A stretch of 64,000 nucleotides of DNA. Origin: Pusillimonas sp. TS35. Its GTDB lineage: Bacteria; Pseudomonadota; Gammaproteobacteria; Burkholderiales; Burkholderiaceae_B. Shown here one piece after another: positions 30,711-56,918 of this stretch. A program made the position numbers and the translations under genes. The notes beneath the pieces were generated by a model. The model was not told where the DNA came from and ran no database searches. It saw only the letters and a list, made by a program, of their open reading frames with translations. Numbering within the stretch: the stretch's first letter is position 1; the number at the start of each line of letters is the position of its first letter. The stretch lies in the NCBI RefSeq assembly GCF_009857885.1, contig NZ_WWER01000001.1, positions 62,001 to 126,000 of the forward strand, read 5' to 3'.

Positions 30711-32450
30711 ATGATCAAGCAATCGCTGTTCGCGAACCTGAAAGTACGCACCAGTCTGATTCTGGTGCTTGTTTTTTTCCTTCTCATGCTCATTGCGGGC
30801 GCGGCACTCGGCATATTGTCGCTGCGCGAGAACCAGAAGTCGTTCGACCGCGTGGTCAGCGCACAGCAGGCCGACGCCCAATTGCAAGGCGCGGTAGACA
30901 TGTACAAGAACGCACATGTGATGCTGGGCCGGGCCGTCGCCAGCTATATCGTTAATAGCGATCAGCAAAACTACCTGGTGGCGCAACAGTTCGGCGGTGC
31001 CACCGATGCAGTGTTGAGCCAGGACACACTCGACAGCATTGCTGCAGCGGGCAGGTTCTTCGATGAGTCGCGCGGGCGCTTCAAGGCATACCAGGCCGCT
31101 GTGGGTGCGCTGGCTGATCCGGATGGCCGCTATCGGAGCGTGACGCAGCGCTACGAAACTCTGATGGACAAGGGTGTTGCGCCGCTGATCGAAAGCGCCA
31201 GGAACGGCAAGATCGCTGAGTTGCATGCTCGTCTGACCAGTACGGTAAGCCAGCTTGAAAGCGATTTCTATGTGGCACTGGAGAATCTGCAAGCCTATCA
31301 GTTGGCGAGGATCGATACGCTAGGCAAGGAGCAGGATGCTGCCTTCACGCTCGTGGTGCGTATGGTGGCCGCCGCCATGGTGGTGTGCATACTCATTGCC
31401 ATGGCCAGCTATGGGTTTCTCAATCGCGTGGTGCTGCGGCCGCTGCGCCGCGCGGGCGAGCACTTCGACCGTATTGCCGGTGGCGACCTGACCGGCCGTA
31501 TCACGCTGCGTGGCCGCAACGAAATCGGTGCGTTGTTCGAGAGCCTGCGCCATATGCAAGAAGGCCTGACGCACACGGTAAGCACGGTTCGCGCTGGTGT
31601 GGAAGAGATCACGCTGGGCTCGCGCGAGATCTTCATGGGCAACACGGATCTGAGCAGCCGCACCGAGCAGCAGGCGGCTTCGTTGCAGGAAACCGCGGCG
31701 AGCATGGAGCAGTTGTCCAGCACGGTGCGCCAGAACACCGATAACGCGAATCAGGCCGATGTGCTGGCCAAGAGCGCGTCTGAGGTTGCCGGACGGGGCG
31801 GTCGCGCGGTGTCGGAGGTGGTGCAGACCATGAACGAGATCTCGACCAGCTCAGGCAAGATGGCCGAGATTGTTGGGGTGATCGATGGCATTGCCTTCCA
31901 GACCAATATTTTGGCGCTGAACGCGGCGGTGGAAGCGGCGCGGGCCGGCGAGCAGGGCAAGGGTTTTGCGGTGGTGGCGGGCGAGGTTCGCTCGCTTGCC
32001 CAGCGCAGCGCGCAGGCGGCCAAGGAGATCAAGGTGCTGATCGAGGAGTCGCAGTTGAAGGTGCAGGCGGGCGCGCGCCAGGCGGGCGAAGCGGGCGAGA
32101 TCATGCGCGAGGTGGTGGGTTCGGTCCAAGGGGTGACCACGATCATGGCCGAGATATCCTCGGCATCGCGCGAGCAGTCCGAAGGGATCGAGCAAGTGAA
32201 TCAGGCGGTGGCCGAGATGGATGGCGTGGTGCAGCAGAACGCATCGCTGGTGGAAGAGGCGGCTGCGGCGGCCGGGTCGCTGCAGGAGCAGGCGACGCGC
32301 CTGAGCGATGCGGTGGCGGTGTTCAAGATTGGCCCCGGAGAGGTGATCGACATGCATGAGAAACTACAACAGTCAGATGCGGCCGTAATCGCACAGGGCA
32401 ATCGCACGTCCGGCGTTCCCCTCGCCGTAGAACCGTTGCTGGGTGCATGA
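30711..32450 (+). CDS. Methyl-accepting chemotaxis protein 1 (Tar/Tsr type)
   Basis: This transmembrane chemoreceptor has 579 residues. Helix 1 (about 14-37) and helix 2 (about 213-235) flank a periplasmic four-helix-bundle domain of about 175 residues. HAMP follows ([20 protein letters not shown]). The signalling hairpin tip is [20 protein letters not shown]. Its methylation helices and tip are DNA-identical over 768 bp (31574-32341) to the receptor gene at 55200. The tail lacks the W-x-x-F tether for CheR. The ATG at 30711 fits best; a TTG three codons upstream is also in frame. cheR overlaps its stop by 4 bp (ATGA). Confidence 0.95.
31574..32341 (+). repeat. 768-bp identical repeat, copy in mcp1 signalling domain
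   Basis: This segment is base-for-base the same as 56081-56848 at an offset of 24,507. The first mismatches are at 31573 and 32342. It encodes the methylation helices and the kinase-control tip. Synonymous positions are also identical, which points to recent gene conversion or duplication, not selection on protein alone. Confidence 0.93.
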
Positions 32451-33292
32451 ACGTGCGGATGGCCGATTCCTTTCTGTTTGCCGTTCAGTCGGGCCCCGAG
32501 GCGCAGCCGGGTGATTTCGGCCGCGCAGCGCGATTGCTGCGCCAGCGCGTGGGCATCATACTGGCCGATCACAAGCGCGAGATGGTCGAGCGCAAGCTGG
32601 GCATGCGCGCCAAGGCGCTGGGGATGAGCAGCATCTCCGCCTATCTGGATTGCCTGGAGTCCAACGCCGATGACGCAGAGTGGGAAGGCTTCATCAATGG
32701 CTTCACGATCAACCATACGGCGTTTTTCCGCGAACAGCATCACTTCGAACTCTTGGCCGAGCATGCCCGTAGCCGCCCGCGACCGCTGTCGGTATGGTGC
32801 TGTGCAAGCTCCACGGGCGAAGAGGCCTATTCGATTGCCATGACCTTGCAAGACATCTGTGGCGGCCGACAGGGCAGCTTCAACTTGCTGGCCACTGATA
32901 TTGACACACAGGCGCTGGTGACGGCGCGGCGCGGCGTATACAGCCTGGATCGAGTTTCCAGTGTGCCACAGGCCTTTCTGCGCACGTATTTTCAGCGCGG
33001 CATACGCCGCGAAGCAGGGCGCGTACGCGTTTCGTCAACCTTGCGCGAGGCAGTGCAGTTCGAACACCTGAACCTGTTGTCGCGTGACTGGCCCGCAGGG
33101 CCGTTTGACGCGGTTTTTTGCCGCAATACCATGATCTATTTTGACAAGCCCACGCAAACACGCCTGCTCGAGCGTTTTGCCGGCGTGCTCAAGCCGGGTG
33201 GTCTGCTGTTTGTGGGCCATTCCGAGAATTTCACTTATCTGACCAAAGCGCTGCGGTTACGCGGGCAAACGGTGTATGAGGTGGCCCGATGA
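32447..33292 (+). CDS. cheR: Chemotaxis methyltransferase CheR
   Basis: CheR methylates glutamates on receptors using SAM. It has 281 residues. The N-terminal helical domain contains [20 protein letters not shown]; the catalytic part has [20 protein letters not shown], the SAM site [20 protein letters not shown] and [20 protein letters not shown]. The start overlaps the mcp1 stop and its stop overlaps the cheB start, both as ATGA, so the three are translationally coupled. Confidence 0.96.
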
Positions 33293-34377
33293 GCCAGCTT
33301 CACTCTCCGCCTGAGAATGGGGCGGGCCCGCGCAAGATCAAGGTATTGTGTGTAGACGACTCCGCGCTTGTACGGGGCATCATGGCACAGATCATCAACG
33401 ACCAGCCCGACATGGAGGTCGTGGCGGTGGCGCCCGATCCTCTGGTGGCGCGTGAGCTGATCAAGCAGCACAATCCGGACGTGCTGACGCTAGATGTTGA
33501 GATGCCACGCATGGACGGCCTCGATTTTCTGGAGCGCCTCATGCGATTGCGCCCGATGCCGGTGCTGATGATCTCTTCGCTGACCGAACGCGGTTCGGAG
33601 GTCACGCTGCGCGCGCTCGAGCTGGGCGCTGTCGACTTCATCACCAAGCCCCGGCTGGGTCTGCGTGATGGTTTGCTCGAATACAGTGAGCTGATTGCCG
33701 AGAAAATCCGAGGCGCTGCGCTGGCGCGTCCGCGCGCCAGAGAGGCGGTGGCCAGCCCCGGCAAGCGGCTGGTGCGCCCGTTCTCCACAACCGAAAAGCT
33801 CGTGCTGATCGGCTCGTCCACAGGCGGCACCGAGGCGATCAGGCAGGTACTGGAACCCTTGCCAGCGAACAGCCCGGCGATTCTTATCACTCAGCATATG
33901 CCTGCCGGGTTCACCCGCTCATTTGTGCAGCGGCTGGACAATCTGTGCGCGGTACAGGTGCACGAGGCGGAGGATGGCCAGCGCGTGCTGCCGGGCCACG
34001 TCTACCTGGCGCCTGGAGGCGCGGCGCACATGAAGCTTGCACGGTCGGGCGCAAACTATGTGGTGCGGCTCGACTATAGCGAGCCCGTTAATCGCCATCG
34101 TCCGTCTGTTGATGTGCTGTTTCATTCGGCCGCACAAGTGGCCGGCGCCAATGCCGTCGGCGTGATTCTCACGGGCATGGGCAAGGATGGTGCCCAAGGG
34201 CTGTTGGCGATGAAGCAGGCAGGCGCTGTCACGATGGCGCAGGATGAGGCAAGCTGTGTGGTGTTTGGCATGCCGCGTGAGGCGCTGCATATCGGTGCGG
34301 CGGATACTGCGGTGCCATTGGCCGACATCAGTCGCCGCATACTGGCCGCTTGTGGCGCATACGGGCACAGGGTTTGA
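33289..34377 (+). CDS. cheB: Chemotaxis methylesterase/response regulator CheB
   Basis: CheB removes methyl groups from receptors when phosphorylated by CheA. It has 362 residues. The receiver domain starts [20 protein letters not shown] and has the phospho-Asp in [19 protein letters not shown]. The esterase domain holds the catalytic Ser in [16 protein letters not shown], the His in [18 protein letters not shown] and the Asp in [19 protein letters not shown]. No cheD is found beside it. Confidence 0.96.
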
Positions 34378-34452
34378 ATATCGCCAGCGGGTCTCGGAAC
34401 GGTAGAGTCCGCACCGCGCTGTCAAAGCTATCTTGATTTGGAGAGTAAACAA

Positions 34453-34842
34453 TTGGTACAGAAGACGATAAAGATTCTGGTGGTCGATGACTTCCCGACC
34501 ATGCGCAGAATTGTCAAGAACCTGTTGAAGGATCTGGGTTTCGAGAATGTCGACGAAGCGGAAGACGGTGCGCAGGGTCTCGAGAAGCTGCGCAATGGCA
34601 ATTTCGACTTTGTGGTATCAGACTGGAATATGCCCAACATGGATGGGCTTGAGATGCTCAAGCACATCCGTGCCGATCCAGCACTCAAGGCGCTGCCAGT
34701 GCTGATGGTCACCGCCGAGGCCAAGAAGGAGAACATCATCGCGGCAGCCCAGGCCGGTGCCAACGGTTATGTGGTCAAGCCCTTCACAGCAGCGACGCTG
34801 GAAGAGAAGCTGAACAAGATCTTCGAGAAGCTTGGTGGTTGA
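34453..34842 (+). CDS. cheY: Chemotaxis response regulator CheY (TTG start)
   Basis: CheY-P binds FliM and switches the rotation direction. From the TTG at 34453 it has 129 residues, exactly E. coli length, and 8 residues precede LVVDD as in E. coli CheY. GGAGAG lies at ideal distance before this TTG. Hallmarks are [19 protein letters not shown], the phospho-Asp in [39 protein letters not shown] and [19 protein letters not shown]. No in-frame ATG exists before the active site, so a non-ATG start is required. Confidence 0.95.
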
Positions 34843-34852
34843 GGAGAGCACG

Positions 34853-35497
34853 ATGGAAGCCACCGGAAACCAAACGATGAAGGTAGATGATGCGGTGCCA
34901 ACCGATCTGATACACCGTATTGCGTCGCTGACGCACATGCTGCGTCAAAGCATGCGTGACCTCGGGCTGGATCATGCCATCAAGGAAGCAGCGCATGCCA
35001 TTCCAGATGCGCGCGAGCGCCTGCGCTATGTCGCCACCATGACTGAGCAGGCCGCTAACCGGGTGTTGAACGCCGCCGAAGCCGCCCAGCCGTTACAAGA
35101 GCAGCTTCGCGGCGACGCCAAGGCGCTGGACGCCCGCTGGCAGGCCTGGTTCGACCATCCAGTGGAGCTGAATCAAGCGCGCGAGCTGGTGGATGACACG
35201 CGCGGCCTGCTCAAGCAGGTGCCCGCCACAGCCCAGGAAACCCAGGGCCTGCTCATGGACATCATCATGGCGCAGGACTTCCAGGATCTCACCGGCCAGG
35301 TCATCACACGTATGCTGGGTGTCATCACCGCGATCGAAGAAGAGTTGGTCCAAGTGCTGATCGACAATGTGCCTCACGAGCGCCGCGAAGAAGCGCAATC
35401 GCTGCTGAACGGCCCGGTGGTCAATGCAGACGGCAAGCCCGATGTGGTGACCAGCCAGGATCAGGTGGACGACCTGCTGGCCAGCCTGGGCTTCTGA
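34853..35497 (+). CDS. cheZ: CheY-P phosphatase CheZ
   Basis: CheZ dephosphorylates CheY-P. It has 214 residues and is almost wholly helical. The catalytic Gln sits in IIMAQDFQDLTGQVITRML, the conserved core, and the C-terminal CheY-binding helix is QDQVDDLLASLGF. GAGGAG lies 6-7 bases before the ATG, and the gene starts 10 bp after the cheY stop. Confidence 0.95.
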   Translation: MEATGNQTMKVDDAVPTDLIHRIASLTHMLRQSMRDLGLDHAIKEAAHAIPDARERLRYVATMTEQAANRVLNAAEAAQPLQEQLRGDAKALDARWQAWFDHPVELNQARELVDDTRGLLKQVPATAQETQGLLMDIIMAQDFQDLTGQVITRMLGVITAIEEELVQVLIDNVPHERREEAQSLLNGPVVNADGKPDVVTSQDQVDDLLASLGF

Positions 35498-35524
35498 TTT
35501 GCAGCCTACCCGCACACCGGGAGC

Positions 35525-35545
35525 AGTGCAGCCCGGCGCTGCACT
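35525..35545. terminator. Stem-loop after cheZ
   Basis: AGTGCAGC (35525-35532) and GCTGCACT (35538-35545) form a perfect 8-bp stem with a CCGGC loop, 28 bp after the cheZ stop. No T-run follows. It may end or stabilise the chemotaxis transcript before flhB; the remaining 130 bp up to flhB hold no feature I can name. Confidence 0.45.
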
Positions 35546-35675
35546 ATGCAGTATCCGAAATGACGGGTCTTATCGGCCTTGATCCGTCATTATCCTGCCT
35601 GCATGTTTGACTAGAATTCTGGCATATCGATGGAAATTCTCTCCATTCCGTCCATCCCCAGACTTCCGGCATTGC

Positions 35676-36845
35676 ATGGCAGAGGACAGCGACCTCGAAA
35701 AAACCGAACCCGCATCACCCCGGCGCTTGGAAAAAGCGCGTGAAGAAGGGCAGGTTGCGCGTTCGCGCGAACTCAATACATTCCTGCTGCTTGCCGCTGG
35801 TACGGCGATGCTTTGGCTGGGCGGTGGGCAGTTGTATCAAGGGCTGACCAGTGTTTTGCGCGGCAGCATGTGGTTCGATCCGAGTGTGGGCCGCGATGCG
35901 AATGTAATGCTTGTGCTGGCCGCAGGTGCTGCTTTCAATGGCTTCAAGCTGCTCGCGCCATTGTTTGGCGTGCTGGTGGTGGTCGCCATACTTGCTTCCG
36001 TCGCTTTAGGGGGCTTTCTATTCTCGCCCAAGGCTCTGGAGCCCAAGTTTGAGCGTCTGAACCCGATCAAAGGTGTGGCACGCCTGTTTTCGGGGCAGAC
36101 CATGATGGAGTTGGCCAAGACGCTTGCCAAGGCCGCGGTTATCGGCACCATCGCGGCGCTGGTCGTTGCCCATTACCGCGACAGCATGATCGCGCTGATG
36201 CACGCGGCGCCCGCGCAGGCGCTCACAGCGGGCATCCGCATCGTCGCCCTCTGCTGTGCCCTTATTGTGGCGGCGCTTTTCCTTATCGTGGCCATCGACG
36301 CGCCATGGCAGCTCTTCAGCCTGCACAAGAAGCTGCGCATGTCGCGCGAAGACGTGCGGCAGGAACACAAGGAAAGCGAAGGCGATCCACAGCTCAAGGG
36401 GCGCATACGCCAGCAGCAGCGTGCCATGGCGCGCCGGCGCATGATGTCCGATGTGCCCAAGGCCGACATCATAGTCACCAACCCCACGCATTATGCGGTG
36501 GCGCTGTCCTATAAGGATGGCGAGGGTAGTGCACCGCGTGTCGTGGCCAAAGGCACCGGCTTGGTTGCCGCGCGTGTGCGCGAAGTCGGCCAAGCTCATC
36601 ACGTACCTATCCTCAGTGCGCCGCCGTTGGCGCGCGCGCTGTATCACAATGTTGAGCTTGGGCACGAGATCCCGGCAGCGCTCTACGCCGCGGTGGCAGA
36701 GGTGCTGGCATGGGTGTTTCAGCTTCGCGCATGGCGCGCGGGTGCGGGCGCCGAACCTCGCCAGCCCGGGCGCCTTGCCGTGCCGCCCGACATGGACCCG
36801 GCCAACAAGGCGAACAAGGCAATCAAGGCAACTGAACTTTCATGA
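35676..36845 (+). CDS. flhB: Flagellar export switch protein FlhB
   Basis: FlhB sits at the export gate and switches substrate class from rod/hook to filament. It has 389 residues. It begins with EDSDLEKTEPASPRRLEKAR, followed by four membrane helices. The autocleavage site NPTH is present in ADIIVTNPTHYAVALSYKDG. The basic Ala/Lys tail NKANKAIKATELS is extra. I chose the ATG at 35676 because the family N-terminus begins there. flhA overlaps its stop by 4 bp. Confidence 0.96.
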   Translation: MAEDSDLEKTEPASPRRLEKAREEGQVARSRELNTFLLLAAGTAMLWLGGGQLYQGLTSVLRGSMWFDPSVGRDANVMLVLAAGAAFNGFKLLAPLFGVLVVVAILASVALGGFLFSPKALEPKFERLNPIKGVARLFSGQTMMELAKTLAKAAVIGTIAALVVAHYRDSMIALMHAAPAQALTAGIRIVALCCALIVAALFLIVAIDAPWQLFSLHKKLRMSREDVRQEHKESEGDPQLKGRIRQQQRAMARRRMMSDVPKADIIVTNPTHYAVALSYKDGEGSAPRVVAKGTGLVAARVREVGQAHHVPILSAPPLARALYHNVELGHEIPAALYAAVAEVLAWVFQLRAWRAGAGAEPRQPGRLAVPPDMDPANKANKAIKATELS

Positions 36846-38956
36846 ACAATCTTCTCGTCCTGCTGCGCAACAATGGCGGGGCTCAGGCGCGCCTGCTCGC
36901 CGGCCCGGTGCTGATCATGATGGTCATGGCCATGATGATTCTGCCGCTGCCGCCGTTCATCCTCGACTTGTTGTTCACCTTCAATATCTCCTTGTCGGTG
37001 ATGATTCTGCTGGTGGCCATGTTCACAAAAAAGCCGCTCGATTTCGCCGCCTTCCCGGCCGTGCTGTTGTTCGCTACGTTGCTGCGCCTGGCTCTTAACG
37101 TGGCGTCCACCCGCGTCGTGCTGCTGCATGGCCATAAGGGGCCGGACGCCGCGGGCAAGGTGATCGAGGCTTTCGGCCATTTTCTGGTAGGCGGTAATTT
37201 TGCTGTCGGTATCGTGGTCTTTGTCATCCTCATCATCATCAACTTCATGGTGATCACTAAGGGTGCAGGCCGTATTGCCGAGGTGGGCGCGCGTTTCACG
37301 CTGGATGCTATGCCAGGCAAGCAGATGGCTATCGATGCCGACCTTAACGCCGGGCTTATCGGCGAAGATGAGGCGCGCCGTCGCCGCACCGAAGTGGGCC
37401 AGGAGGCGGAGTTCTACGGCTCGATGGACGGTGCCAGCAAGTTTGTGCGTGGCGATGCCGTGGCCGGCCTGCTGATCATGGTGATCAACGTTGCGGGTGG
37501 GCTGATTATCGGTGTGGCACAGCATGATCTGGGATTTGCCGAGGCGGGGCGGGTTTACACGCTGTTGACGATTGGTGACGGCCTGGTGGCGCAGATCCCT
37601 GCACTGGTGATTTCCACCGCTGCTGGCGTGGTCGTGTCGCGCGTGGCCACGGAGCAGGACGTCGGCCAACAGATGGTTACCCAACTGTTCAGCAATCCCG
37701 CTGTGCTCTACATCACTGCGGGCATCATGGCGCTGATGGGGTTGATCCCCAATATGCCTCATGTCGCCTTCTTGTTGCTGGCCGCTGTCATGGCTGGCTG
37801 TGGCTGGAGTGTAAGCAAGCGCCAGCAGGCCGCCGCGCAGCAGAAGGCCGATGAGCCCGTACGCGCACAGGCGGTGGCAGATGCCGCGGCGGCCGAAGCA
37901 AGTTGGGACGATGTGGCGCTGGTCGATCCCCTCGGGCTCGAAGTAGGCTATCGCCTCATCTCGCTGGTGGATCACGCGCAGAATGGCGAGTTGCTGCATC
38001 GCATCCGAAGCCTTCGCAAGAAGTTCGCACAGGATGTCGGCTTCCTGCCGCCGGTGGTACACATCCGCGACAATCTCGAACTCAAGCCCAACGACTACCG
38101 CATCATGTTATCTGGTGTCGAGATCGGTCATGGCACGGCAACGCCGGGCCAATGGCTGGCGATCGATCCAGGCGGTGTATCCATGCAGCTGCCGGGCACG
38201 CCCACCACAGATCCGGCCTTCGGTCTGCCGGCGGTATGGATAGACGTCAGCCTGCGCGAACAGGCGCAGATTGCCGGCTACACCGTAGTGGACGCGAGTA
38301 CGGTGATCGCCACCCATCTCAACCATCTCATGCATCTGCACGGCGCGCGTCTGCTGGGGCGCCAGGAGGTGCAGCAATTGGTCGAGCACATTGGTCGCGA
38401 AGCGCCCAAGCTGGTCGAAGATCTGGTGCCCAAGACGATCACGCTTACGCAACTGCAAAAGCTGCTGCGCGGCCTGCTGGCCGAGGATGTACCCATCCGC
38501 GACGTGCGCACAATCATTGAAACTGTGTCCGAACATGCGCCACGCCTTGCCGCGCAAGATCCGTCCGGTGCGGGGCCCGACAGCGGCGAACTGCTTGCGC
38601 AGGTGCGGCTGGCGCTTGGCCGCGCCATTTCGCAGCATTGGTTCCCCGGCGATGGGGAAATGCGCGTGATCGGCCTGGATGCACGCCTCGAGCGCGTACT
38701 GACTCAGGCTCTTACCGCGACCGGTGCACTGGAGCCTGGTTTGGCCGAAAGTGTGCTGCAGGAAGTCCAACGCGCCATAGCGGTGCAAGACGCCAATGGA
38801 GATCCAACCGTGCTGGTGACGCCCGCCATTCTGCGTCCGTCGCTGGCGCGCTTCCTGCGGCACAGCTTTCCGCAGTTGGGTGTGCTTTCCAGTGCCGAGA
38901 TTCCTGAAGACCGGATATTTAAAGTAACCGCTGTGATTGGTGGAGGCCAGGCATGA
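36842..38956 (+). CDS. flhA: Flagellar export gate protein FlhA
   Basis: FlhA forms the nonameric export gate and docks chaperone-substrate complexes. It has 704 residues. Eight or so helices fill the first 330 residues, with the conserved FHIPEP-type loop containing RIAEVGARFTLDAMPGKQMA and IDADLNAGLIGEDEARRRR. The cytosolic domain runs from about 350 to the end (for example LVDPLGLEVGYRLISLVD). The gene overlaps flhB and flhF by 4 bp each. Confidence 0.97.
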   Translation: MNNLLVLLRNNGGAQARLLAGPVLIMMVMAMMILPLPPFILDLLFTFNISLSVMILLVAMFTKKPLDFAAFPAVLLFATLLRLALNVASTRVVLLHGHKGPDAAGKVIEAFGHFLVGGNFAVGIVVFVILIIINFMVITKGAGRIAEVGARFTLDAMPGKQMAIDADLNAGLIGEDEARRRRTEVGQEAEFYGSMDGASKFVRGDAVAGLLIMVINVAGGLIIGVAQHDLGFAEAGRVYTLLTIGDGLVAQIPALVISTAAGVVVSRVATEQDVGQQMVTQLFSNPAVLYITAGIMALMGLIPNMPHVAFLLLAAVMAGCGWSVSKRQQAAAQQKADEPVRAQAVADAAAAEASWDDVALVDPLGLEVGYRLISLVDHAQNGELLHRIRSLRKKFAQDVGFLPPVVHIRDNLELKPNDYRIMLSGVEIGHGTATPGQWLAIDPGGVSMQLPGTPTTDPAFGLPAVWIDVSLREQAQIAGYTVVDASTVIATHLNHLMHLHGARLLGRQEVQQLVEHIGREAPKLVEDLVPKTITLTQLQKLLRGLLAEDVPIRDVRTIIETVSEHAPRLAAQDPSGAGPDSGELLAQVRLALGRAISQHWFPGDGEMRVIGLDARLERVLTQALTATGALEPGLAESVLQEVQRAIAVQDANGDPTVLVTPAILRPSLARFLRHSFPQLGVLSSAEIPEDRIFKVTAVIGGGQA

Positions 38957-41304
38957 ACATGAGTCGGTTCTTTGGCGCGACCAATCGCGAGGCGATGCGC
39001 CAGGTCAGGCTGGCGTTGGGGCCCGACGCCATGATTGTGTCTAACCGCCGCGTGAACGGCGGTGTCGAGATCATTGCTGCTGACCACGAGTACGCAGCCG
39101 CTGATGCGGAACCGGCCGTCGAGGTCCAACCCGGCAATGAAGTGCTGGGTGCTATCGACGCTATGCGCGACGCACTTGAAAACCGCATGGAAGATATGCT
39201 TTGGGGCGGTCAACTGCGCGAGAGCCCGACCGCGGCCGCCCTTTTTCAGCGCCTGCTTGAGTCGGGCTTCAGCACGGCATTGTTGCGCGCCATGCTGACG
39301 CGCCTGCCACGCCAATTATCCGATCGCGACGGCCTGCAGTGGGCCCGCGCCGAGCTGGTCGCGCATCTGCCGGTTGCCGATGAACAGGCATTCTGGCTCC
39401 CTGGCCAGGTGATTGCCTTGGTTGGCCCTACCGGCGTGGGCAAGACAACCACGCTGGCCAAGTTGGCGGCCCGGCACGTCCGCCGCCCCGGTGGCGGCAG
39501 CCTGGTGCTGATCACTACGGATACCTACCGTATCGGCGCGCACGAGCAGTTGCTGATCTACGGCCGTAAGCTGGGCCTGCCCGTGCACGTGGCGCGCAAT
39601 GCTGATGACCTGGCGCGCGTACTGGGCAGCCTCGGTCCGCAGCACACCGTTCTGATCGACAATATGGGCGTGAGCCAGCGCGATGGCAGGGTGGCGGATC
39701 AGGCGGGCATGCTGGCCGGCGCAGGCCGTCCGGTGGACAGGCTGCTGGTACTCAATGCCGCCAGCCAGGGCGATACCTTGGATGACGTGGCGCGTGCTTA
39801 TTCGCATGCTGGCGGCTCGCCGCTGAAGGGTTGCATCATCTCCAAGTCGGACGAGGCCATGCGGCTGGGCAGCGTGCTCGACACAGCCATCCGTTACCGC
39901 CTGCCTATCCATTACGTATCCAACGGCCAGCGGGTGCCTGAAGACTTGGTGCTGCCGGGCGCCGCATCGCTGATAGACCAGGCGCTTGCTGCGCGGCGTC
40001 AGTCGCGCCCGCTGTATGCACCGACTCAGGCCGATCTTGCCGCATTGCTGACGCTGAATGCAGCGCCGCAGATTCGTGAACAAGCGCGCCAGACAGCCCA
40101 GCAGCGCGAACGCCGGCTGGCCCCGATATTGGCGCTTGCCGCCGGTGGCGCAGCCGCGCCAAGCATTGACGCCGCACAGGCGGCCTGCCGTTGGGTCGAC
40201 GAGGATACTGCCACTGCCGCCGCATGGCAGGCATGGTCCGGCAGGGCTCATACGTCAGGCGCCGGCGGAGTGCGCGAAGGGTTGCTCGAGGCATTGGGTG
40301 CCGCACAGGACGCGGGCCGTATCGATCATGACACGGCCGCAGGCCTTTACGCTGCATGGGGCAATGGTGGCGGCGCCAGCGCGCCGGATACTGCGGATGC
40401 CGGCGCGTTCATCATTGCGCACGGTCACGCCAAATGGATGGAGCAGGCCGATCACGGCGGACGCCTGGCCACCGCAATGGTATTTGATTGGCAGGCCGCG
40501 CCCCTGGCCAGCGCCGGGCAATGTCTGGCCCGCTCCGACGGCTGGGTGGCGTCCTGGGGGGATGCCGCCAGCGGCGCACTCGATCCGGCGGCGCTATTGG
40601 CGGTTCAGGTTGGCGGGTTGGGGGCTGTTCCGCAATTGCGTAATGCACTGCATGTGCTCGACGCTGGCAGCCAATCGCTGCTTCGTTCGATTGATGCGCT
40701 GGGCGTGCGGTGGCTGGGGCTGGTCACACCCACGACACCTGTGTATCACGAAGGTTGTGCGACAACTGTGCGTGCTGTGGCCCGGACGCTGGCCTACCGG
40801 CCTGCCGATGCCGCTCCCGCGCTTTCCATGGATGCGGGCGAGCCCCAACGCAGGGCTTGGATTGGCGTGGCCGATGTTGCGTTGTGCGCGCGCGGGCGGC
40901 CAGCGCTGCCCTTGCGGCTTGTCTGTGTGCGGATGACGCGCGCGGATGACGGGCAGGAAACGGGTATCGTGTATGGCCTGGCTCCTGAAGCGGCCTTGAT
41001 GGGTGTGCTACCTGGGCAATGTGCGGCGGCATTGCTCTCGGGCGTGCGGGGCCGGCAGATTGCCCGCGTTGCAGGCCAGTTCGGCGAGCATTGCCGTGGT
41101 TGGTCGCAGGTTGGCGAGCGGGGTATGGATATGTTGGCGCGCACGCTGCTGGCCGCGCAAATGAGCGCTGCGGCCTGGCGCTTGCACAACTGCGCACAGG
41201 CGCAGCCCGCCAGGGAAATGCTGGCGGCGCTGCCGGGCCCAAAAAATAGCGTTGCACACCGCATTGCGCGGCTTTTTGCCTTGAAGGAAACATTGGAGGC
41301 TTAG
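38953..41304 (+). CDS. flhF: Flagellar SRP-type GTPase FlhF with a long C-terminal extension
   Basis: FlhF is an SRP-like GTPase that helps set flagellar number and position. The usual N, G regions are within the first 350 residues: P-loop GPTGVGKTTTLAK (158 on), TTDTYRIGAHEQLLIYGRKL, a G3 written DNMG (236-239; DTxG is usual) and a G4 written SKSD (297-300; TKxD is usual). The protein continues to 783 residues, whereas typical FlhF has 380-470. The extra ~420 residues are Ala-rich and match nothing I recognise. flhG, its usual partner, does not follow; instead flgN converges 70 bp downstream. Confidence 0.93.
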   Translation: MNMSRFFGATNREAMRQVRLALGPDAMIVSNRRVNGGVEIIAADHEYAAADAEPAVEVQPGNEVLGAIDAMRDALENRMEDMLWGGQLRESPTAAALFQRLLESGFSTALLRAMLTRLPRQLSDRDGLQWARAELVAHLPVADEQAFWLPGQVIALVGPTGVGKTTTLAKLAARHVRRPGGGSLVLITTDTYRIGAHEQLLIYGRKLGLPVHVARNADDLARVLGSLGPQHTVLIDNMGVSQRDGRVADQAGMLAGAGRPVDRLLVLNAASQGDTLDDVARAYSHAGGSPLKGCIISKSDEAMRLGSVLDTAIRYRLPIHYVSNGQRVPEDLVLPGAASLIDQALAARRQSRPLYAPTQADLAALLTLNAAPQIREQARQTAQQRERRLAPILALAAGGAAAPSIDAAQAACRWVDEDTATAAAWQAWSGRAHTSGAGGVREGLLEALGAAQDAGRIDHDTAAGLYAAWGNGGGASAPDTADAGAFIIAHGHAKWMEQADHGGRLATAMVFDWQAAPLASAGQCLARSDGWVASWGDAASGALDPAALLAVQVGGLGAVPQLRNALHVLDAGSQSLLRSIDALGVRWLGLVTPTTPVYHEGCATTVRAVARTLAYRPADAAPALSMDAGEPQRRAWIGVADVALCARGRPALPLRLVCVRMTRADDGQETGIVYGLAPEAALMGVLPGQCAAALLSGVRGRQIARVAGQFGEHCRGWSQVGERGMDMLARTLLAAQMSAAAWRLHNCAQAQPAREMLAALPGPKNSVAHRIARLFALKETLEA

Positions 41305-41374
41305 GCGGCCGCGGCACGCGCGCGGCGACGCGGAAAGCCCCTAAGCACGATGCGCAAGAAACGGATGGGGAGCG

Positions 41375-41851: not shown

Positions 41852-41913
41852 GAGCGTGTGCGTGATTCGAAGCGGGCTGGACGAGGCACCGGCGCCAGAG
41901 CCAGCCGCTTGCC

Positions 41914-42198: not shown

Positions 42199-42269
42199 GG
42201 TGTTCTCCGGGGGCATGAATGCCACGTTGCGGCATCTTGCGGGGTGTCTGGGAATGCGTTCTGGATTCT

Positions 42270-46085: not shown

Positions 46086-46094
46086 GCCTGACTC

Positions 46095-46838: not shown

Positions 46839-46885
46839 TGAACATCAGACGCGCCGGCGCGCCGGCTGTGTCAAGGACATAAAAA

Positions 46886-47671: not shown

Positions 47672-47711
47672 TGAGCGCGCTCGCGTCCTGCCTGCCCTGA
47701 CTGCCATCACC

Positions 47712-48398: not shown

Positions 48399-48399
48399 C

Positions 48400-49551
48400 A
48401 TGAACCTCGTTCTTCTTCGCTCCATACACTGCCGCCCGTCATTGCCTTGGGTGCGTATTGCGGTGGCCACCTTGTTCGGGCTGGTGCTTGCGTGTGGCAC
48501 TGCGCAGGCAGAGCGCATCAAGGATCTGGCTAGCATTCAGGGCGTGCGCGACAACCAGCTTATTGGCTACGGCCTGGTGGTCGGCCTCGATGGCAGCGGC
48601 GACCAAGTACGCCAGACGCCATTCACGCAGCAGAGCCTGACCAATATGCTGTCGCAACTGGGGATCACCGTGCCCCAGGGCAGCAATATGCAGCTCAAGA
48701 ACGTTGCTGCTGTGATGGTTACCACCACACTGCCGGCGTTCGCGCAGCCCGGCCAGTCGCTGGATGTCGTGGTGTCGTCAATGGGCAATGCCAAGAGTCT
48801 GCGCGGTGGTACGTTGCTCATGACACCGCTCAAGGGCGCCAACGGCCAAGTCTATGCGCTCGCCCAGGGCAATCTGCTGGTGGGCGGCGCGGGCGCACAA
48901 GCCGGCGGTTCCAGCGTGCAGGTAAATCAGCTCAATGGCGGCATCATTCCGGGCGGCGCCATTGTTGAACGGGGCGTGCCCACGATGTATGCGCGCGATG
49001 GCGTCATCCGGCTGGAGCTCAACAACACCGATTTTGGCACTGCGCAGAATGTCGTCGCGGCGCTGAACCGCCAGTTCGGCGGTGGGGTCGCGCAGGCGCA
49101 GGATGGCCGCGTGATTCGGCTGCAGGGTCCACGGGACCCATCCGCGCAAACAGCGTTCCTGTCGCAGGTGGAGAATTTGCAGGTCAAGCTGCCCCCGGCG
49201 CGCGCCAAAGTGATCGTCAATGCCCGCACTGGATCGGTGGTCATGAATCGTACCGTCACCATCGAAGAGGCCGCTATTGCGTATGGAAATCTGTCGGTTG
49301 TCATCAGTCGGGATGCGCAGGTCAGCCAGCCTGACACGCCTTTTGCAGGCGGCCAGACCGTGGTCACGGAGAGTACGCAAATCGAGATGCGCAGCGAGCG
49401 CGGTGGCCTGCAGCGGGTGCGCACCAGCGCCAACCTGGCGGACGTCGTGCGTGCGCTCAACTCACTGGGCGCGACGCCTCAGGACCTGCTGTCCATCCTG
49501 CAAAACCTGAAGGCTGCCGGCGCGCTGCGCGCGGATCTCGAGGTTATCTAG
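48400..49551 (+). CDS. flgI: Flagellar P-ring protein FlgI
   Basis: FlgI forms the P ring in the peptidoglycan layer. It has 383 residues with a signal peptide cleaved after GTAQA. The mature part begins [20 protein letters not shown] and [39 protein letters not shown] and [20 protein letters not shown] are further family marks. It is followed by flgJ after 8 bp. Confidence 0.97.
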
Positions 49552-49559
49552 GAGGGGCC

Positions 49560-50558
49560 ATGGGCTTTGTTCGTTATATTCCGCGCCCTGGCGAAGGCGC
49601 CGGCTCTACGCTTGATTTCAGCGGCCTGAATGCGCTCAGGCGCGGCCTGAAGGCGGGCGGCAACACGCCGGCCGCCGAGCGCGAGATTGCACAGCAGTTC
49701 GAGGCATTGTTCATCCAGCAGATGCTTAAGCAGGCGCGCAGCGCTGACGGCATGGGAACGCTGCTGGACAGCCAGCAGACCCGGCTGGCGCAGAGTATGA
49801 GCGACGAGCAAATGGCGCTTCAGCTATCGGAGAAAGGTATAGGCTTGGCCGAGGCACTGCTGGCGCAGATCCGCAGTGCGGGTTCGTCGGTTGATGATGC
49901 ACAGTTGGGTGCGCAAGCCCCGGAGCTGGCGGCATCGCGGCTGCCCGGCCTGCGCTCGCGCATGCCCGACGAACGTAGCTATGAGGCGTCGTCCATCACC
50001 ACTCTGCTCGAGAAGCTGACGGGCGGCTTGGTTCGGCGCGACTCGATCGCCGGCCGAGCCATATCGGCCATAGAGGGCGCGCCTAAGCATATCCGTGATT
50101 TCGTAGCCAGCCTTGGCGATGCCGCGCGCACGGCGGCACGCGAAAGCGGCCTGCCCGAGAAGCTCGTGCTCAGCCAAGCGGCATTGGAATCCGGCTGGGG
50201 CAAGCGCGAGATCCGCGGCGAAGATGGTGCCAGCAGCTACAACCTCTTCGGCATCAAGGCCGGTGCGAGCTGGAAGGGCAAGGTGGTGCACGTGATGACG
50301 ACGGAGTACGAGAATGGCGTGCCGCGCAAGCTGATGCAGCCTTTCCGTGCCTACGATTCGTATGCCGAGTCTTTCGCCGATTATGCGCGGCTGATTACGC
50401 AGAGCACACGCTACAGCGCCGTAACTGATGCAGGTTCCGCTGAAGAAGCTGCGCGCCGGATCCAGGAAGCCGGCTATGCCACTGATCCGGCGTATGCCGA
50501 AAAGCTGATTTCCATCATGAGCTACTTCGACCATGGGACCCGCACACATCGTACATAA
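49560..50558 (+). CDS. flgJ: Flagellar rod cap / peptidoglycan hydrolase FlgJ
   Basis: FlgJ has two jobs: its N-terminal domain caps the growing rod and its C-terminal domain opens the peptidoglycan. It has 332 residues and both parts are present, as in beta- and gammaproteobacteria. The N-terminal region has EIAQQFEALFIQQMLKQARS. The GH73 glucosaminidase domain has the catalytic Glu region ARESGLPEKLVLSQAALESG and WGKREI. A strong site AGGAGGGG precedes the ATG. Confidence 0.96.
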   Translation: MGFVRYIPRPGEGAGSTLDFSGLNALRRGLKAGGNTPAAEREIAQQFEALFIQQMLKQARSADGMGTLLDSQQTRLAQSMSDEQMALQLSEKGIGLAEALLAQIRSAGSSVDDAQLGAQAPELAASRLPGLRSRMPDERSYEASSITTLLEKLTGGLVRRDSIAGRAISAIEGAPKHIRDFVASLGDAARTAARESGLPEKLVLSQAALESGWGKREIRGEDGASSYNLFGIKAGASWKGKVVHVMTTEYENGVPRKLMQPFRAYDSYAESFADYARLITQSTRYSAVTDAGSAEEAARRIQEAGYATDPAYAEKLISIMSYFDHGTRTHRT

Positions 50559-50601
50559 GGTACATAAGGGTCGTCGCACTGCCATAGACGCTGCGGCACC
50601 C

Positions 50602-50628
50602 TAAATTCCAGGCCCGATGTGCCGTAAA
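50602..50628 (+). promoter_or_regulatory. Sigma-28 (FliA) promoter of flgKL
   Basis: TAAA (50602-50605), 15-bp spacer, GCCGTAAA (50621-50628). The match to TAAA-N15-GCCGATAA is 10 of 12 at exact spacing. Transcription would start near 50635, about 58 bases before flgK. It makes flgK, flgL and perhaps mcp2 late genes. Confidence 0.85.
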
Positions 50629-50692
50629 GCCTCATGTAATGATTTAACGCGCGGTGGGCCCAGGTCTGTCGCGGTTTGGAGCTGAAGCCCCC

Positions 50693-52333
50693 ATGAATTT
50701 AGCCAATCTTGGCCTGTCCGGCCTAAATGTCGCGCAAAACCGCCTGCAGACCGTGGGCCACAATATCAATAACGCGGCAACCGAGGGGTATAACCGTCAA
50801 TCGGTACTCGTCTCCACAGCGGGGGCTACCGCCACGGCTGCCGGCTATATCGGCCGGGGCGTGCAGGCGGTTACGGTGCAACGCGCCTACGACGGCTTCC
50901 TGTTCCGGCAACTGACGCGCGCGCAGACTGAGGGCGCTCGCATCGCGGCCTACGGCAACGAGATCACGCAGATCAACAACCTGTTGGCCGATCGTACCGT
51001 CGGCATCACGCCCGCGCTGCAGAAGTTTTTCGACGGTATCCAGGCTGTGGCGTCGGCTCCCGCCGACAGCGCCGCGCGACAGGAGCTGTTGGGCCGGGCC
51101 GCCAGCTTGGCCAGCCAGATCAACGACACTAACGCTTTTCTCGACGAACAGCGCAACAACGTCAATACACAGATCACCACGGTGGTCACACAGATCAATA
51201 GCTACGCCGAGCGCATTCGCGACCTGAACCAGCAAATCGTCAATGCCAAGGCTTCGGCGTCGAATCACGCGCCGAACGACTTGCTCGACCAGCGTGACCA
51301 GCTTGTTTCCGAGCTGGGGCAGCTTGTGGGCGTCAATGCCGTCGAGCAGGACGGTGTGATCAGTCTCACGATCGGCAATGGCCAACTGCTGCTGGGGGGC
51401 GATACGGTATTCCCGCTCAGCGCCCAGCCGTCACAGGCGGATCCCGCCCGCGTAATCGTGGCCTATAGCGTGCCCGCAACAGGTGGCGGCACGCTACAGG
51501 TAGAAATGCCCGAGCACCGTGTGCAGGGCGGCAAGCTGGGAGGGCTGGTGGCTTACCGGCGCGAAGCGCTTGATGCGGTGCAGAACGACTTGGGTCGGTT
51601 GGCGGTGGGTGTCGCCACCGCGGTTAACGCGCAGCATGCACAGGGTGTCGATCTATCCGGCACGGCCGGCCAGGTATTTTTCTCGCTGAGGCCCATTACG
51701 CCCATTCCGGCGCAGGGCAACAGCGGAACGGGCGGCTTGACAGCCGTATTCAGCAGCGCCAATCAACTGACCGCCCAGGATTACTCCATTGAGCGCACCG
51801 CAACCGGCTTTACCGTCACCAGCGTCCCGGGCGGTACGGTGACCGCCATTACCGGCGACACAGGTGTCGTGGATGGCGTGGAGTTTACCTTTGACAGCAC
51901 GACCCCCGTGGGCGAGAGCTGGCTGGTGCAACCCACGCGCTCGGCTGCTGCGGGCTTCTCGCTGGCATTGACCGACCCGGCGACTATCGCGGCAGCGGCA
52001 GTCGGTGCCGGCACAGCCAACGGCGACAACGCCCTGGCCATGGCCAGGCTGCAAACCGGCAAGCTGCTGGGCAATAACTCCATGAGCCTGAACGAAGCCT
52101 TCTCGCAGATCGTCAACAAGGTCGGCGTGCTGACTCAGCAGAACACCACGGAAGCCAAAGCGCAGAAGACCCTGATCGAGCAGAATTATGCCGCGCAGCA
52201 GGCAGTGTCGGGGGTGAATCTGAACGAAGAATACGTGAGCCTGCAGCGTTACCAGGAGCAGTACCAGGCAGCGGCGCGGCTGATCGACGTCAGCAGCACG
52301 CTGTTCGACACGTTGCTGGGTATGCGCAACTAA
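50693..52333 (+). CDS. flgK: Flagellar hook-associated protein 1 FlgK
   Basis: FlgK is the first hook-filament junction protein. It has 546 residues, like enteric FlgK (547). The N-terminal signature is NLGLSGLNVAQNRLQTVGHN and INNAATEGYNRQSVLV; the C-terminal signature is GVNLNEEYVSLQRYQEQYQA followed by AARLIDVSSTLFDTLLGMRN. I preferred the ATG at 50693 to an in-frame upstream start because the conserved N-terminus begins there. FlgN is its chaperone. Confidence 0.96.
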   Translation: MNLANLGLSGLNVAQNRLQTVGHNINNAATEGYNRQSVLVSTAGATATAAGYIGRGVQAVTVQRAYDGFLFRQLTRAQTEGARIAAYGNEITQINNLLADRTVGITPALQKFFDGIQAVASAPADSAARQELLGRAASLASQINDTNAFLDEQRNNVNTQITTVVTQINSYAERIRDLNQQIVNAKASASNHAPNDLLDQRDQLVSELGQLVGVNAVEQDGVISLTIGNGQLLLGGDTVFPLSAQPSQADPARVIVAYSVPATGGGTLQVEMPEHRVQGGKLGGLVAYRREALDAVQNDLGRLAVGVATAVNAQHAQGVDLSGTAGQVFFSLRPITPIPAQGNSGTGGLTAVFSSANQLTAQDYSIERTATGFTVTSVPGGTVTAITGDTGVVDGVEFTFDSTTPVGESWLVQPTRSAAAGFSLALTDPATIAAAAVGAGTANGDNALAMARLQTGKLLGNNSMSLNEAFSQIVNKVGVLTQQNTTEAKAQKTLIEQNYAAQQAVSGVNLNEEYVSLQRYQEQYQAAARLIDVSSTLFDTLLGMRN

Positions 52334-52400
52334 GCCGTATTCAGTCCGCGCCATAAGCGCGTGCGCCTTACGTCAATGATTGTTTAACGGGTTTTCCATC

Positions 52401-53636
52401 ATGCGCATCAGCTCTACTCAGTTTTATCAAACCGGCCTGTTCGCTATAAATTCGCAACAGTCCGAAGTCGTGCATCTGTATAAGCAGCTGGGCAGCGGCA
52501 AGCGTATGGTCACGCCAGCGGATGATCCCTTGGCCGCCGCGCAGGCCATCAATCTCAGCCAGTCCAAGTCGCTCAGTCAACGCTATGCGGACAACCGGTC
52601 CGTGGCCAAGCAGAACCTGGGGGTGGAAGAAAATACGCTCTCATCGGTTACCACGCTGCTGCAGGACATCAAGACGCGCCTGGTCGAGGCCGGTAATGGC
52701 ACCATGTCCAACGAAGACCGCGCCACGCTAGCCAATGTGCTGCGCAATGCCCGCACCAGCTTGCTTGGCCTGGCCAATGCCACGGACGGCAACGGGCAAT
52801 ACCTGTTTTCGGGTTCGCGCGGCGAAGTAGAGCCTTTTCAAGAAACCGGCGCAGGCGTCGTTTACAACGGTGATGCCCTGCAGCGCAATATTCAGGCCGA
52901 TCAAACGCGTCTGATTCCGGGCAGCGATACGGGAACCGACGTATTCAACCGCGCAGCGCCCGGCACCAGCAGCTATCTCACGCGCGCGGGCGCTGCCAAC
53001 GGGGGTACGGGTGTAGTCGGCAAGCCGCTCATTGAGAACCCGGCTGGCACGGGTATCGGCAGTACGTTCAGCCTTACCTTCACTGCTGCGCAGACCTTTG
53101 ACGTAATTGTGACTGCGCCTGACGGCACCACCCAAACATATAACGGCATTGCTTACGACGCGGCCAGCGGCAGAGTTTCGCTGCCGGGCGGCATCCAGAT
53201 TTCGGTGACAGGCGCGCCACAGGCTGGCGACACATTCGTGGCCGAGCCGGCGGCAGGTGCGGGCGCCGATCTCAATATATTTGACACCTTGGAAGGCATG
53301 ATCGCCGCGCTTCAGCTCAACGTTCAGGATAACGCCGTCGAGACGGCGCAGTTCCAGAATGCCCTGGGGGCTACCATCCAGCGTGTCGATGTCTCTTACA
53401 ACAACGTGCTCACCGTGCGTGCTTCCGTGGGCGCCCGCCTGAATGAGCTGGACGCGCTCGACGCCAACGGCAGCCAGCGTACGCTGGGTTACACCGCCCA
53501 GTTGTCCGGGTTGGAAGACCTGGATTATTACGCGGCCTCCACTAATCTCCAGCTGCGTCTGTCCGCACTCGAAGCGGCGTCGTTGGCTTTCCAGAAGATC
53601 CAGGCAACCAGCCTGTTCAATATCAAATCGAGCTGA
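52401..53636 (+). CDS. flgL: Flagellar hook-associated protein 3 FlgL
   Basis: FlgL is the second junction protein. It has 411 residues, longer than enteric FlgL (317) because of a larger central variable domain. It begins [20 protein letters not shown] and continues [20 protein letters not shown]; it ends with AALSALEA-like helical [23 protein letters not shown]. The ATG at 52401 gives the conserved start. mcp2 starts 2 bp after the stop. Confidence 0.95.
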
Positions 53637-53638
53637 AA

Positions 53639-55102
53639 ATGAGCGTTTCGAACCTGCAACTCAGAAGTAGTCTGCCAGCGTTGTTGCTGGTGGTGTTTGC
53701 AGCCGCGGCGGCGGCAGTCGCCGCAGGCTGGTATGCACACGCGCAGGCGGGTGCCGTACTGGTGCAGGCGCTGGGCGAGACGGCGGCCCCTGTTGCCGCG
53801 TTTACCGAGCGCTATGCATGGCTGGACATTGCGTTCCCCCTGCTGCTGCTGCTGGCCATACTGGCGGCAGGCTTTGGCGCTGCACTGGTTGTGCGCGGCG
53901 TGCTGCGTCCGCTGGATATGGTAACGATGCAGTTCGAACGCTTGGCGGGTGGCGATCTTTCCGCACCTGAGGAGGTCGAGGTCGGCAACGAGATAGGCGC
54001 CTTGTCCCAGGCCGTCCGACAACTGCAGGAGAACCTGGCCCGCTCTGTGGTAAGTGTGCGGCGCGGCTTGCATAAGCTGCAGGATGGCGCACAGCAGATC
54101 GTCGACGGCAATACCGAGTTGAGCAGCCGCACCGAAGAGCAGGCGGCAGCGTTGCAGCAAACAGCAGCCAGCATGGAACAGCTTTCCAGCACGGTACGCC
54201 AGAACGCGGACAACGCGCGCCAGGCCAATCAACTGGCGTCGGCCGCTTCGGACGTGGCGCAGCGTGGCGGTGAATCGGTCGGCGAAGTCGTGGTGACCAT
54301 GGATGGCATCTCCGCCAGTTCGCGCAAGATCTCCGATATTGTCGGTGTAATCGACAGTATTGCCTTCCAGACTAATATTCTGGCGCTTAATGCAGCGGTC
54401 GAAGCCGCTCGCGCGGGCGAGCAGGGCAAGGGCTTCGCTGTAGTCGCTTCCGAGGTACGAGCACTGGCACAGCGCAGCGCGCAGGCAGCCAAAGAAATCA
54501 AAGTGCTGATCGAGGATTCCGTCCGCAAGGTGTCCGAAGGGTCGGCGCAGGTCGAACGTGCTGGCGCCACAATGCATGAGATCGTGAATTCGGTTGCCCG
54601 TGTCACCGATATCATGGGCGAAATCTCCGCTGCCACGGCTGAACAGTCCACGGGTATCGACCAGATCAATCGCGCTGTGTCGCAGATGGATCTGGTGATT
54701 CAACAGAATGCGGCGCTGGTGCAGCGCGTTGTTGGCGCCGCCTCGGGCATGCGCGAGCAGGTCACTGGCGTAAACGGTTCTCTGCTCGAGTTCCGCACGC
54801 AGGAGCAACCAGTCATCGATATGCCCGCGCGGGACGTGCCTACCCGCGACGTGCCCATGCGTGATATGCCTGTACGCAAGGCCGCCGCACAGCCTGGGGT
54901 TGAAGAGGCGCGCGCGTCCAAGAGTCCGGCCGCCCTGGGTATAGGGGCTTCCCGTGCTAGCGCTGCTGCCGCGTCTGCCAGGAAGGTCGCAACAGCAAGC
55001 GACACACGCACGGCGCCGACCGCCCAACAGTCGTATGTTATGAAACCGGCCGGACGGGCTGGCAAATCAACGGCAGCGGAGGAGGACTGGGTCGAGTTCT
55101 GA
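53639..55102 (+). CDS. Methyl-accepting chemotaxis protein 2, compact sensor with C-terminal tether
   Basis: This receptor has 487 residues. Helix 1 (about 11-30) and helix 2 (about 62-85) are separated by only about 30 residues, so there is no room for a normal periplasmic ligand domain. HAMP follows, then the signalling hairpin with tip [21 protein letters not shown] tail of about 100 residues has a short repeat ([14 protein letters not shown]) and Ala-rich linker and ends EEDWVEF, fitting the W-x-x-F tether that recruits CheR and CheB. It lies 2 bp after flgL, so it is likely a late gene. It might sense an internal or membrane signal; this is inference. Confidence 0.93.
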
Positions 55103-55124: not shown

Positions 55125-55166
55125 TGCGGCAAGGAGGGCCGGGCCTTTTTGGGCCCGGTTGCCGCA
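55125..55166 (+). terminator. Large inverted repeat between mcp2 and mcp3
   Basis: TGCGGCAA (55125-55132) pairs with TTGCCGCA (55159-55166), and inside it CCGGGCC (55139-55145) pairs with GGCCCGG (55152-55158). This gives 15 paired bases with a six-base GGAGGG bulge on one side. It lies 23 bp after the mcp2 stop. No T-run follows, so it could terminate, attenuate or protect the upstream mRNA. Confidence 0.65.
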
Positions 55167-55199
55167 CTTGTTATAGCTAAACATCGAACAGGTACAACT

Positions 55200-56918
55200 A
55201 TGTCGAATACGCCAGCCCAGCCCACCGCGCAGGGCAAAATCAAGAAGCGCGGGAAACGCAAACCTTTCCGGTTCAGCGACGCGAAGGTCAGCACAATGCT
55301 CATGGCGGTACTAGGAACATTCCTGGTATTGTTGATCGGCGTGGGCAGCATGGGCGCGTGGTTTCTGTCCCAAAGCCTGGACCAAATGAATGCCATGGAG
55401 CGTCAGAGCACCCGTGCGGCGCGCATTCACGCGCTTGGCCAAGCCATGATGGATGTTCGCGTGGCCCTGCTGGTGGCAGCCAATTATCAGGAACAGGCGC
55501 ACAGCAAGAACGACCGCGAAATGGGGGCAAAGGCTACGGCGATGATTGCCGGTGCCGAAGCGAAGCTGGATGAAATCGGCAAGGTGTATAACGCGTTTCG
55601 CAAGGACGCACCAGAAGGCGGCGAGGCTCGCCGCCTGACAACTCGCATTGTCAGTGCCTACCAGCCGTATCTCGACGACGGCGTGACGCCTATGGTGCAG
55701 GCATTGCAGAGCAATGACTACAGCTCGTTCTATTTCATCAACAACGAGTTTGGGATGGTGCGTAGTGAGGCCTTCGAGAAAGCGGTCGAGCAATATGCGG
55801 CATACATCAACAAGGTGTATCAGGATCTCTATGTACAGGCGGAGCAAAGCTTCCAGACCGCACTAATCGCTATTGGCGCGGCGCTTGCAGTCGGTCTGAT
55901 TCTGATGATTGCCATGCGTATGGTCTTCGGGCGTGTGGTGGTGCGTCGTCTGGTGCAGGCGGGCCACCACTTTGATCGCATTGCCGACGGCGACCTGACC
56001 GAACGCATCGAGGTGGGCGCTCGCAACGAGATCGGACTGCTGTATGAAGCGCTGCGGCGCATGCAAGAAGGCCTGACGCGCACGGTAAGCACGGTTCGCG
56101 CTGGTGTGGAAGAGATCACGCTGGGCTCGCGCGAGATCTTCATGGGCAACACGGATCTGAGCAGCCGCACCGAGCAGCAGGCGGCTTCGTTGCAGGAAAC
56201 CGCGGCGAGCATGGAGCAGTTGTCCAGCACGGTGCGCCAGAACACCGATAACGCGAATCAGGCCGATGTGCTGGCCAAGAGCGCGTCTGAGGTTGCCGGA
56301 CGGGGCGGTCGCGCGGTGTCGGAGGTGGTGCAGACCATGAACGAGATCTCGACCAGCTCAGGCAAGATGGCCGAGATTGTTGGGGTGATCGATGGCATTG
56401 CCTTCCAGACCAATATTTTGGCGCTGAACGCGGCGGTGGAAGCGGCGCGGGCCGGCGAGCAGGGCAAGGGTTTTGCGGTGGTGGCGGGCGAGGTTCGCTC
56501 GCTTGCCCAGCGCAGCGCGCAGGCGGCCAAGGAGATCAAGGTGCTGATCGAGGAGTCGCAGTTGAAGGTGCAGGCGGGCGCGCGCCAGGCGGGCGAAGCG
56601 GGCGAGATCATGCGCGAGGTGGTGGGTTCGGTCCAAGGGGTGACCACGATCATGGCCGAGATATCCTCGGCATCGCGCGAGCAGTCCGAAGGGATCGAGC
56701 AAGTGAATCAGGCGGTGGCCGAGATGGATGGCGTGGTGCAGCAGAACGCATCGCTGGTGGAAGAGGCGGCTGCGGCGGCCGGGTCGCTGCAGGAGCAGGC
56801 GACGCGCCTGAGCGATGCGGTGGCGGTGTTCAAGATTGGCCCCGGAGAAGTGATCGACATGCAGGACAAGGAACTTGCGCTGCGCGAACCCGATGCTCGT
56901 ATGGCGCTGGCAACCTAA
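55200..56918 (+). CDS. Methyl-accepting chemotaxis protein 3 (Tar/Tsr type)
   Basis: This receptor has 572 residues. A basic cytosolic head ([12 protein letters not shown]) precedes helix 1 (about 30-52). The periplasmic four-helix domain runs to helix 2 (about 213-236). HAMP and signalling domain follow. From 56081 to 56848 the DNA is identical to mcp1 (31574-32341), while the sensor, HAMP and tail differ. The tail ends ARMALAT and has no W-x-x-F tether. The start ATG at 55200 was chosen because the upstream in-frame part lies in the stem-loop. Confidence 0.94.
56081..56848 (+). repeat. 768-bp identical repeat, copy in mcp3 signalling domain
   Basis: This is the second copy of the repeat described at 31574-32341, in the same orientation. 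The sequence before it (HAMP) and after it (tail) is clearly different between the two genes. Confidence 0.93.

Follow-up and report, generated by a model that had tools for sequence, protein, structure and literature searches.

Locus and gene content

The window, by which we mean the whole 64-kb stretch of DNA analysed here, comes from a genome of 4.10 Mb in 25 contigs and carries a flagellar and chemotaxis gene cluster. Three chemoreceptor genes, here called mcp1, mcp2 and mcp3, lie within it. The features of interest are as follows.

30702..32450, + strand: mcp1, with TarH sensor, HAMP and MCP signalling domain, in the order cheW-mcp1-cheR
31416..31568, + strand: HAMP of mcp1 (aa 239-289), beyond the exact tract, 69% identical to the mcp3 HAMP
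31574..32341, + strand: exact tract, copy 1, signalling domain from just past the HAMP to the start of the C-terminal tail
32447..53636, + strand: genes between the copies, with cheR, cheB, cheZ, flhB, flhA, flgK and flgL named by Pfam, followed by mcp2
53639..55102, + strand: mcp2, with HAMP and signalling domain, no TarH match, not homogenised, C-terminus DWVEF
55149..56918, + strand: mcp3, with TarH sensor, HAMP and MCP signalling domain, downstream of flgL and mcp2
56081..56848, + strand: exact tract, copy 2, identical to copy 1

The remaining che, flh and flg names between the copies are guesses from gene order. The TarH, HAMP and MCPsignal Pfam domains were above cut-off in both mcp1 and mcp3. 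Both open reading frames begin at TTG, and the true start may be a later ATG, which in mcp1 lies three codons on. Upstream of mcp1 are cheA and cheW, and downstream cheR and cheB; mcp3 has flgK, flgL and mcp2 upstream, and fliR downstream on the opposite strand. The best named relatives of mcp1 were records of Pollutimonas, Candidimonas, Parapusillimonas, Paralcaligenes and Eoetvoesiella, genera that we take to be Alcaligenaceae, together with one record titled Alcaligenaceae.

mcp2 is 66.1% identical to both mcp1 and mcp3, which bears out a preliminary description of the window in which mcp2 was called diverged in this region. That description also placed mcp2 between the two others; it does lie between the copies, although it adjoins mcp3 rather than standing mid-way. 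The HAMP regions, described there as different, are indeed outside the exact tract but are still related. In all 12 near genomes introduced below, the mcp2 orthologues end in an xWxxF-type pentapeptide like DWVEF, an ending absent from all 24 mcp1 and mcp3 proteins of the same genomes. Pentapeptides of this type tether CheR or CheB, and mcp2 may aid adaptation of the homogenised mcp1/mcp3 pair.

An exact 768-bp tract in two receptor genes

Base-by-base comparison of 31574-32341 with 56081-56848 gave 768 matches in 768 positions, third codon positions included, so the identity first proposed from reading the sequence holds. These coordinates delimit the maximal exact match, since the bases directly beyond both ends differ. 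The copies are spaced 24,507 bp apart, in direct orientation and in the same codon phase, and each runs from a few bases past the HAMP to the point where the C-terminal tails part. To the left of the tract, ungapped identity falls to 72% over 50 bases and 54% over 300; to the right it is 45% over 60 bases, and the tails of the two genes are largely unrelated. A search of the same genome found two full copies of the tract; the next match by score was mcp2 (71% over 626 bases), and the rest were short pieces at 68-87%. Within the 64-kb window, no same-strand repeated 30-mers were found beyond the mcp1/mcp3 pair.

The tract is therefore a stretch of high identity set between divergent homologous sequence, one of the marks of gene conversion, and silent sites share in the identity, which is another. 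Third codon positions are 100% identical between mcp1 and mcp3, while orthologues average 54.1% there (12 genomes), so protein conservation alone cannot explain the tract. With 0 differences in 768 bases, later divergence of the copies is bounded at less than about 0.4% (rule of three), whereas the same segment differs by 13.6% from that of the nearest other genome; the last event here was therefore recent on that scale.

Sensor and signalling domains in twelve near genomes

We compared both loci in the window and 11 relatives (n = 12), chosen by hand from strong matches. All 11 relatives have the gene order of the window, with cheA-cheW-mcp1-cheR-cheB on one side and mcp2-mcp3 on the other. 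Genomes are denoted by G numbers, among them G229 (Pollutimonas harenae), G221 (P. bauzanensis), G222 (P. nitritireducens), G223 (Candidimonas sp. SYP-B2681) and G208 (Parapusillimonas granuli).

Sensor identity between mcp1 and mcp3 of the same genome is 37-44% in all 12. Orthologous sensors average 62.8% against 39.4% for paralogues taken across genomes; the sensors of mcp1 and mcp3 are old and locus-specific. Signalling domains behave otherwise, with an orthologue mean of 77.6% and a cross-genome paralogue mean of 77.2%, and since these are nearly equal the domain keeps, on average, no trace of its locus.

Within genomes, the two signalling domains are 95.6-100% identical in five of the 12 (window, 100%; G021, 99.6%; G230, 99.6%; G229, 98.6%; G006, 95.6%) and 71-88% identical in the other seven, which comprise an intermediate group (G221, 88.2%; G208, 81.3%; G209, 79.9%; G223, 78.7%) and a lowest one (G222, 73.5%; G004, 71.2%; G005, 71.1%). 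The preliminary description had proposed comparing orthologous pairs within and between genomes; the copies are often more alike within. It had also named sister species keeping two distinct sequences as evidence against its proposal. Such sisters exist in the lowest group, but G021, G230 and G229 are not among them, a mixed outcome that fits repeated events passing over some lineages.

Trees and a wider sample

The sensor tree has two halves, one for mcp1 and one for mcp3, and is thus split by locus. Many signalling domains are instead grouped by genome: the two copies pair with ultrafast bootstrap 99-100 in G021, G006, G229, G230 and G005, and the two identical copies of the window pair with no support value printed. 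The four signalling copies of G208 and G209 group in a single clade (bootstrap 89). In G221, G222 and G223 the mcp1 and mcp3 copies sit together in the drawn tree; these two patterns read as older conversions followed by divergence. The copies of G004 pair in a three-receptor tree (bootstrap 81) and not in the two-receptor tree.

A wider set (n = 24) added 12 further pairs, all from outside the genus of the window. The receptor search passed 60 of 268 genomes at E 1e-150, and the 24 were picked by hand from strong matches, tandem or unlinked copies not being taken. G131 was dropped from the pair counts, as both of its matching pieces lie at contig starts and seemingly represent one place, and G003, G001, G014, G154, G224 and G225 gave no clean pair of che-side and flagellar-side copies. 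The che-side signalling segment was nearest to the flagellar-side copy of its own genome in 17 of the 24, window included, a count that is not a family-wide frequency because a sample of strong matches favours similar pairs. Thus, in 17 genomes in all, paralogues within the genome are closer than orthologues inside the tract and not outside it, a further mark of gene conversion, and the pattern recurs in several genera. It is not universal, since in seven genomes (G208, G209, G222, G223, G004, G005 and G019) the own copy was not the nearest; G004 and G005 nevertheless pair by genome in the 24-genome tree. Pairs exact over the aligned segment were also found in G132 and in G009, the latter a one-contig assembly.

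Run-of-identity statistics and tract edges

Run-of-identity test. In a GENECONV-like shuffle of the window pair, which has 553 polymorphic columns, matching sites run unbroken for 444, a length reached in 0 of 2000 shuffles. The result was also 0 of 2000 in G021, G230 and G208, and P was 0.0035 in G229; the signal was weak in G221 (P = 0.02) and G006 (P = 0.04) and not significant in G004, G005, G209, G222 and G223 (P = 0.07-0.71).

Edges. The left edge of the tract falls at residue 291/292 in the window and at about 248-261, within the HAMP, in G021, G229 and G230, so that edges vary between genomes as separate events would give. The tract of G021 has three differences, all at third positions. 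In G208 (L064, L065), signalling-domain identity of the pair is 81% overall and rises to 91-100% in the bins covering window residues 385-444, a peak that is either a short conversion tract or the result of strong local constraint.

Fourfold sites. Identity of the tract at fourfold sites is raised towards G021, G006 and G230 (63, 60 and 59%, against 47-50% for other genes of the cluster; P = 0.003-0.006) and towards G208 (P = 0.02); no such rise was seen towards G004, G003, G221 or G223. Exchange between species or codon bias may add to the picture. Fourfold composition in the segment at 31575-32339 is unusual, with G at 0.55 against 0.31-0.43 in 15 other measured genes and segments, so codon bias remains a candidate.

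Alternative explanations

Assembly artefact. Truly different copies might have been merged into one consensus, or a contig misjoined through the repeat. The genome is in 25 contigs and has only one 16S match, located 393 bases from a contig start, which suggests a short-read assembly with collapsed repeats; G131 has two contigs that begin in the receptor segment, and these pieces match each other at 100% over 889 bases; and the merging of near-identical paths could wipe out a few true differences. However, collapse would yield one copy rather than two with different flanks, and a gross artefact is unlikely because the gene order on both sides of each copy is that of the relatives and because one-contig genomes have similar pairs (G009, 100%; G021, 99.6%). 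We give this explanation very little weight.

Deletion switch. The preliminary description suggested that the direct repeats could recombine, removing the 24.5 kb between them and giving a non-motile phase. Such an event is physically possible, as the copies are exact, and since they are direct repeats in the same codon phase a deletion would fuse mcp1 to mcp3 in frame. Large inversions in Campylobacter jejuni are tied to repeats in its tlp genes, some 1-2 kb long (PMC5135748). Deletion would remove flhA while cheA and cheW stayed behind. The genotype expected after deletion, CheA without an FlhA-family gene, was nevertheless seen in 0 of 207 family genomes that were at least 95% complete, in a test that takes one genome per species and to which rare variants within a culture are invisible. 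CheA was found in 157 of these genomes and FHIPEP in 160, the 157 all falling within the 160; those with FHIPEP and without CheA were G089, G130 and G244. FHIPEP also matches type III secretion relatives, so loss of FlhA could be masked in this test; the CheA-positive genomes with lower FHIPEP scores were G126, G016, G173 and G232, and in G126 the two receptor copies are both present at a spacing of 26.8 kb. Rearranged forms were thus not found by this test, and gene order was kept at both places in the compared pairs. Deletion would moreover be irreversible and therefore not a phase; if rare deletions did arise in culture they would represent ordinary recombination between repeats. A switch function is accordingly without support here and highly improbable.

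Two genomes were looked at as candidate deletions. G002 (L132, L133), from the genus of the window, was rejected since it keeps flhA to flgL and is without the receptors themselves, the opposite of what deletion predicts: mcp1, cheW, cheR, cheB, mcp2 and mcp3 were not found in its cluster, and a genome-wide search with mcp1 found no receptor at E 0.001. It keeps relatives of flhC, motA, motB, cheY and cheZ (some labels guessed from gene order) along with flagellar genes, and its cheA matches residues 16-598 of 731 only. From its gene content G002 looks like a flagellated genome that lost chemoreception. G023 had no FHIPEP or CheA match, and neither flank of the P. harenae cluster found a match in it, which left no junction to read. 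Its genus label, g20, is that of G229; within this genus the cluster is present in G229 and G230, each with a near-identical receptor pair.

Recent duplication. Duplication of a whole receptor followed by fast divergence of the sensor would likewise give identical signalling domains, and is the explanation offered for Campylobacter tlp3 (PMC9769880). We set it aside as having almost no chance of being right, since orthologues of each of the two sensors occupy the matching locus in other genera and the sensor tree is divided by locus, the opposite of the genome-wise pairs that duplication would give.

Purifying selection. No part of a chemoreceptor is more conserved than its signalling domain, but that strong selection alone kept two old copies alike is scarcely credible given their complete third-position identity, set against the orthologue mean above, and the mere 66% of mcp2, a member of the same domain family.

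Recurrent gene conversion as the probable explanation

Recurrent gene conversion between the signalling domains of mcp1 and mcp3 is, at a probability of roughly 0.9, our explanation of the tract, and recurrent non-reciprocal homologous recombination appears the simplest account of these sequences. Conversion had been raised in the preliminary description and is strongly supported by the within- and between-genome identities, the trees and the nearest-copy result in 17 of 24 genomes. A single recent domain swap, raised alongside it, suits the data less well, because several lineages show homogenisation, apparently of different ages.

On this account, mcp1 and mcp3 are receptor genes of long-separate descent, each at its own conserved position in the flagellar-chemotaxis cluster. 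Where their signalling stretches are similar, homologous recombination, presumably of the RecA type and one-way, would repeatedly copy one sequence over the other with no crossover. The tracts end in or at the HAMP to the left and at the unrelated C-terminal tail to the right, and for that reason the sensors remain locus-specific even as the signalling domains undergo concerted evolution. Crossovers would probably not be kept because loss of the flagellar genes would be selected against.

Relation to known systems

Close precedent is found in the C. jejuni group A receptors Tlp2, Tlp3 and Tlp4 (with Tlp11/CcrG), paralogues that have different sensors with identical or near-identical signalling domains and whose DNA contains long repeats at scattered sites (PMC9769880, PMC5135748, PMC5080441, PMC6433261). 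The signalling domains of Tlp2, Tlp3 and Tlp4 are described as identical (PMC9769880). The mcp1/mcp3 case belongs to this kind, with a different receptor type and a different bacterial group. The C. jejuni receptors have dCache sensors, whereas ours are TarH-type, and their repeats, some 1-2 kb long with one of the three reversed, are tied to inversions of 93 kb and 388 kb (PMC5135748, PMC6433261). Here, by contrast, the repeats are direct and 24.5 kb apart within one flagellar cluster, with no rearrangement seen. The C. jejuni arrangement has been ascribed to duplication and domain swap; the present loci are old, with the same gene order across genera, and their homogenisation is recurrent. 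Concerted evolution of duplicated bacterial genes such as rRNA operons also rests on conversion between copies in one genome (PMC8022953), but in the present receptors homogenisation is confined to one domain of a multidomain protein. Among the matches listed in a search of open-licence literature, we found no earlier report of receptor conversion or concerted evolution in this bacterial family.

Homogenisation might itself be selected, if the two loci need interchangeable signalling modules in a mixed array; HAMP-edged conversion would then be a modular upgrade path, spreading one signalling domain across several sensors with occasional import from other species. We regard this as speculative and rather unlikely.

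The sensor and signalling halves of mcp1 and mcp3 have opposite histories, and MCP signalling domains are for this reason unsafe for inferring orthology. One receptor pair, held at the same two places across genera, provides a clean natural series running from 71% to 100% identity, and with it a system for testing whether receptor arrays favour matched signalling modules.
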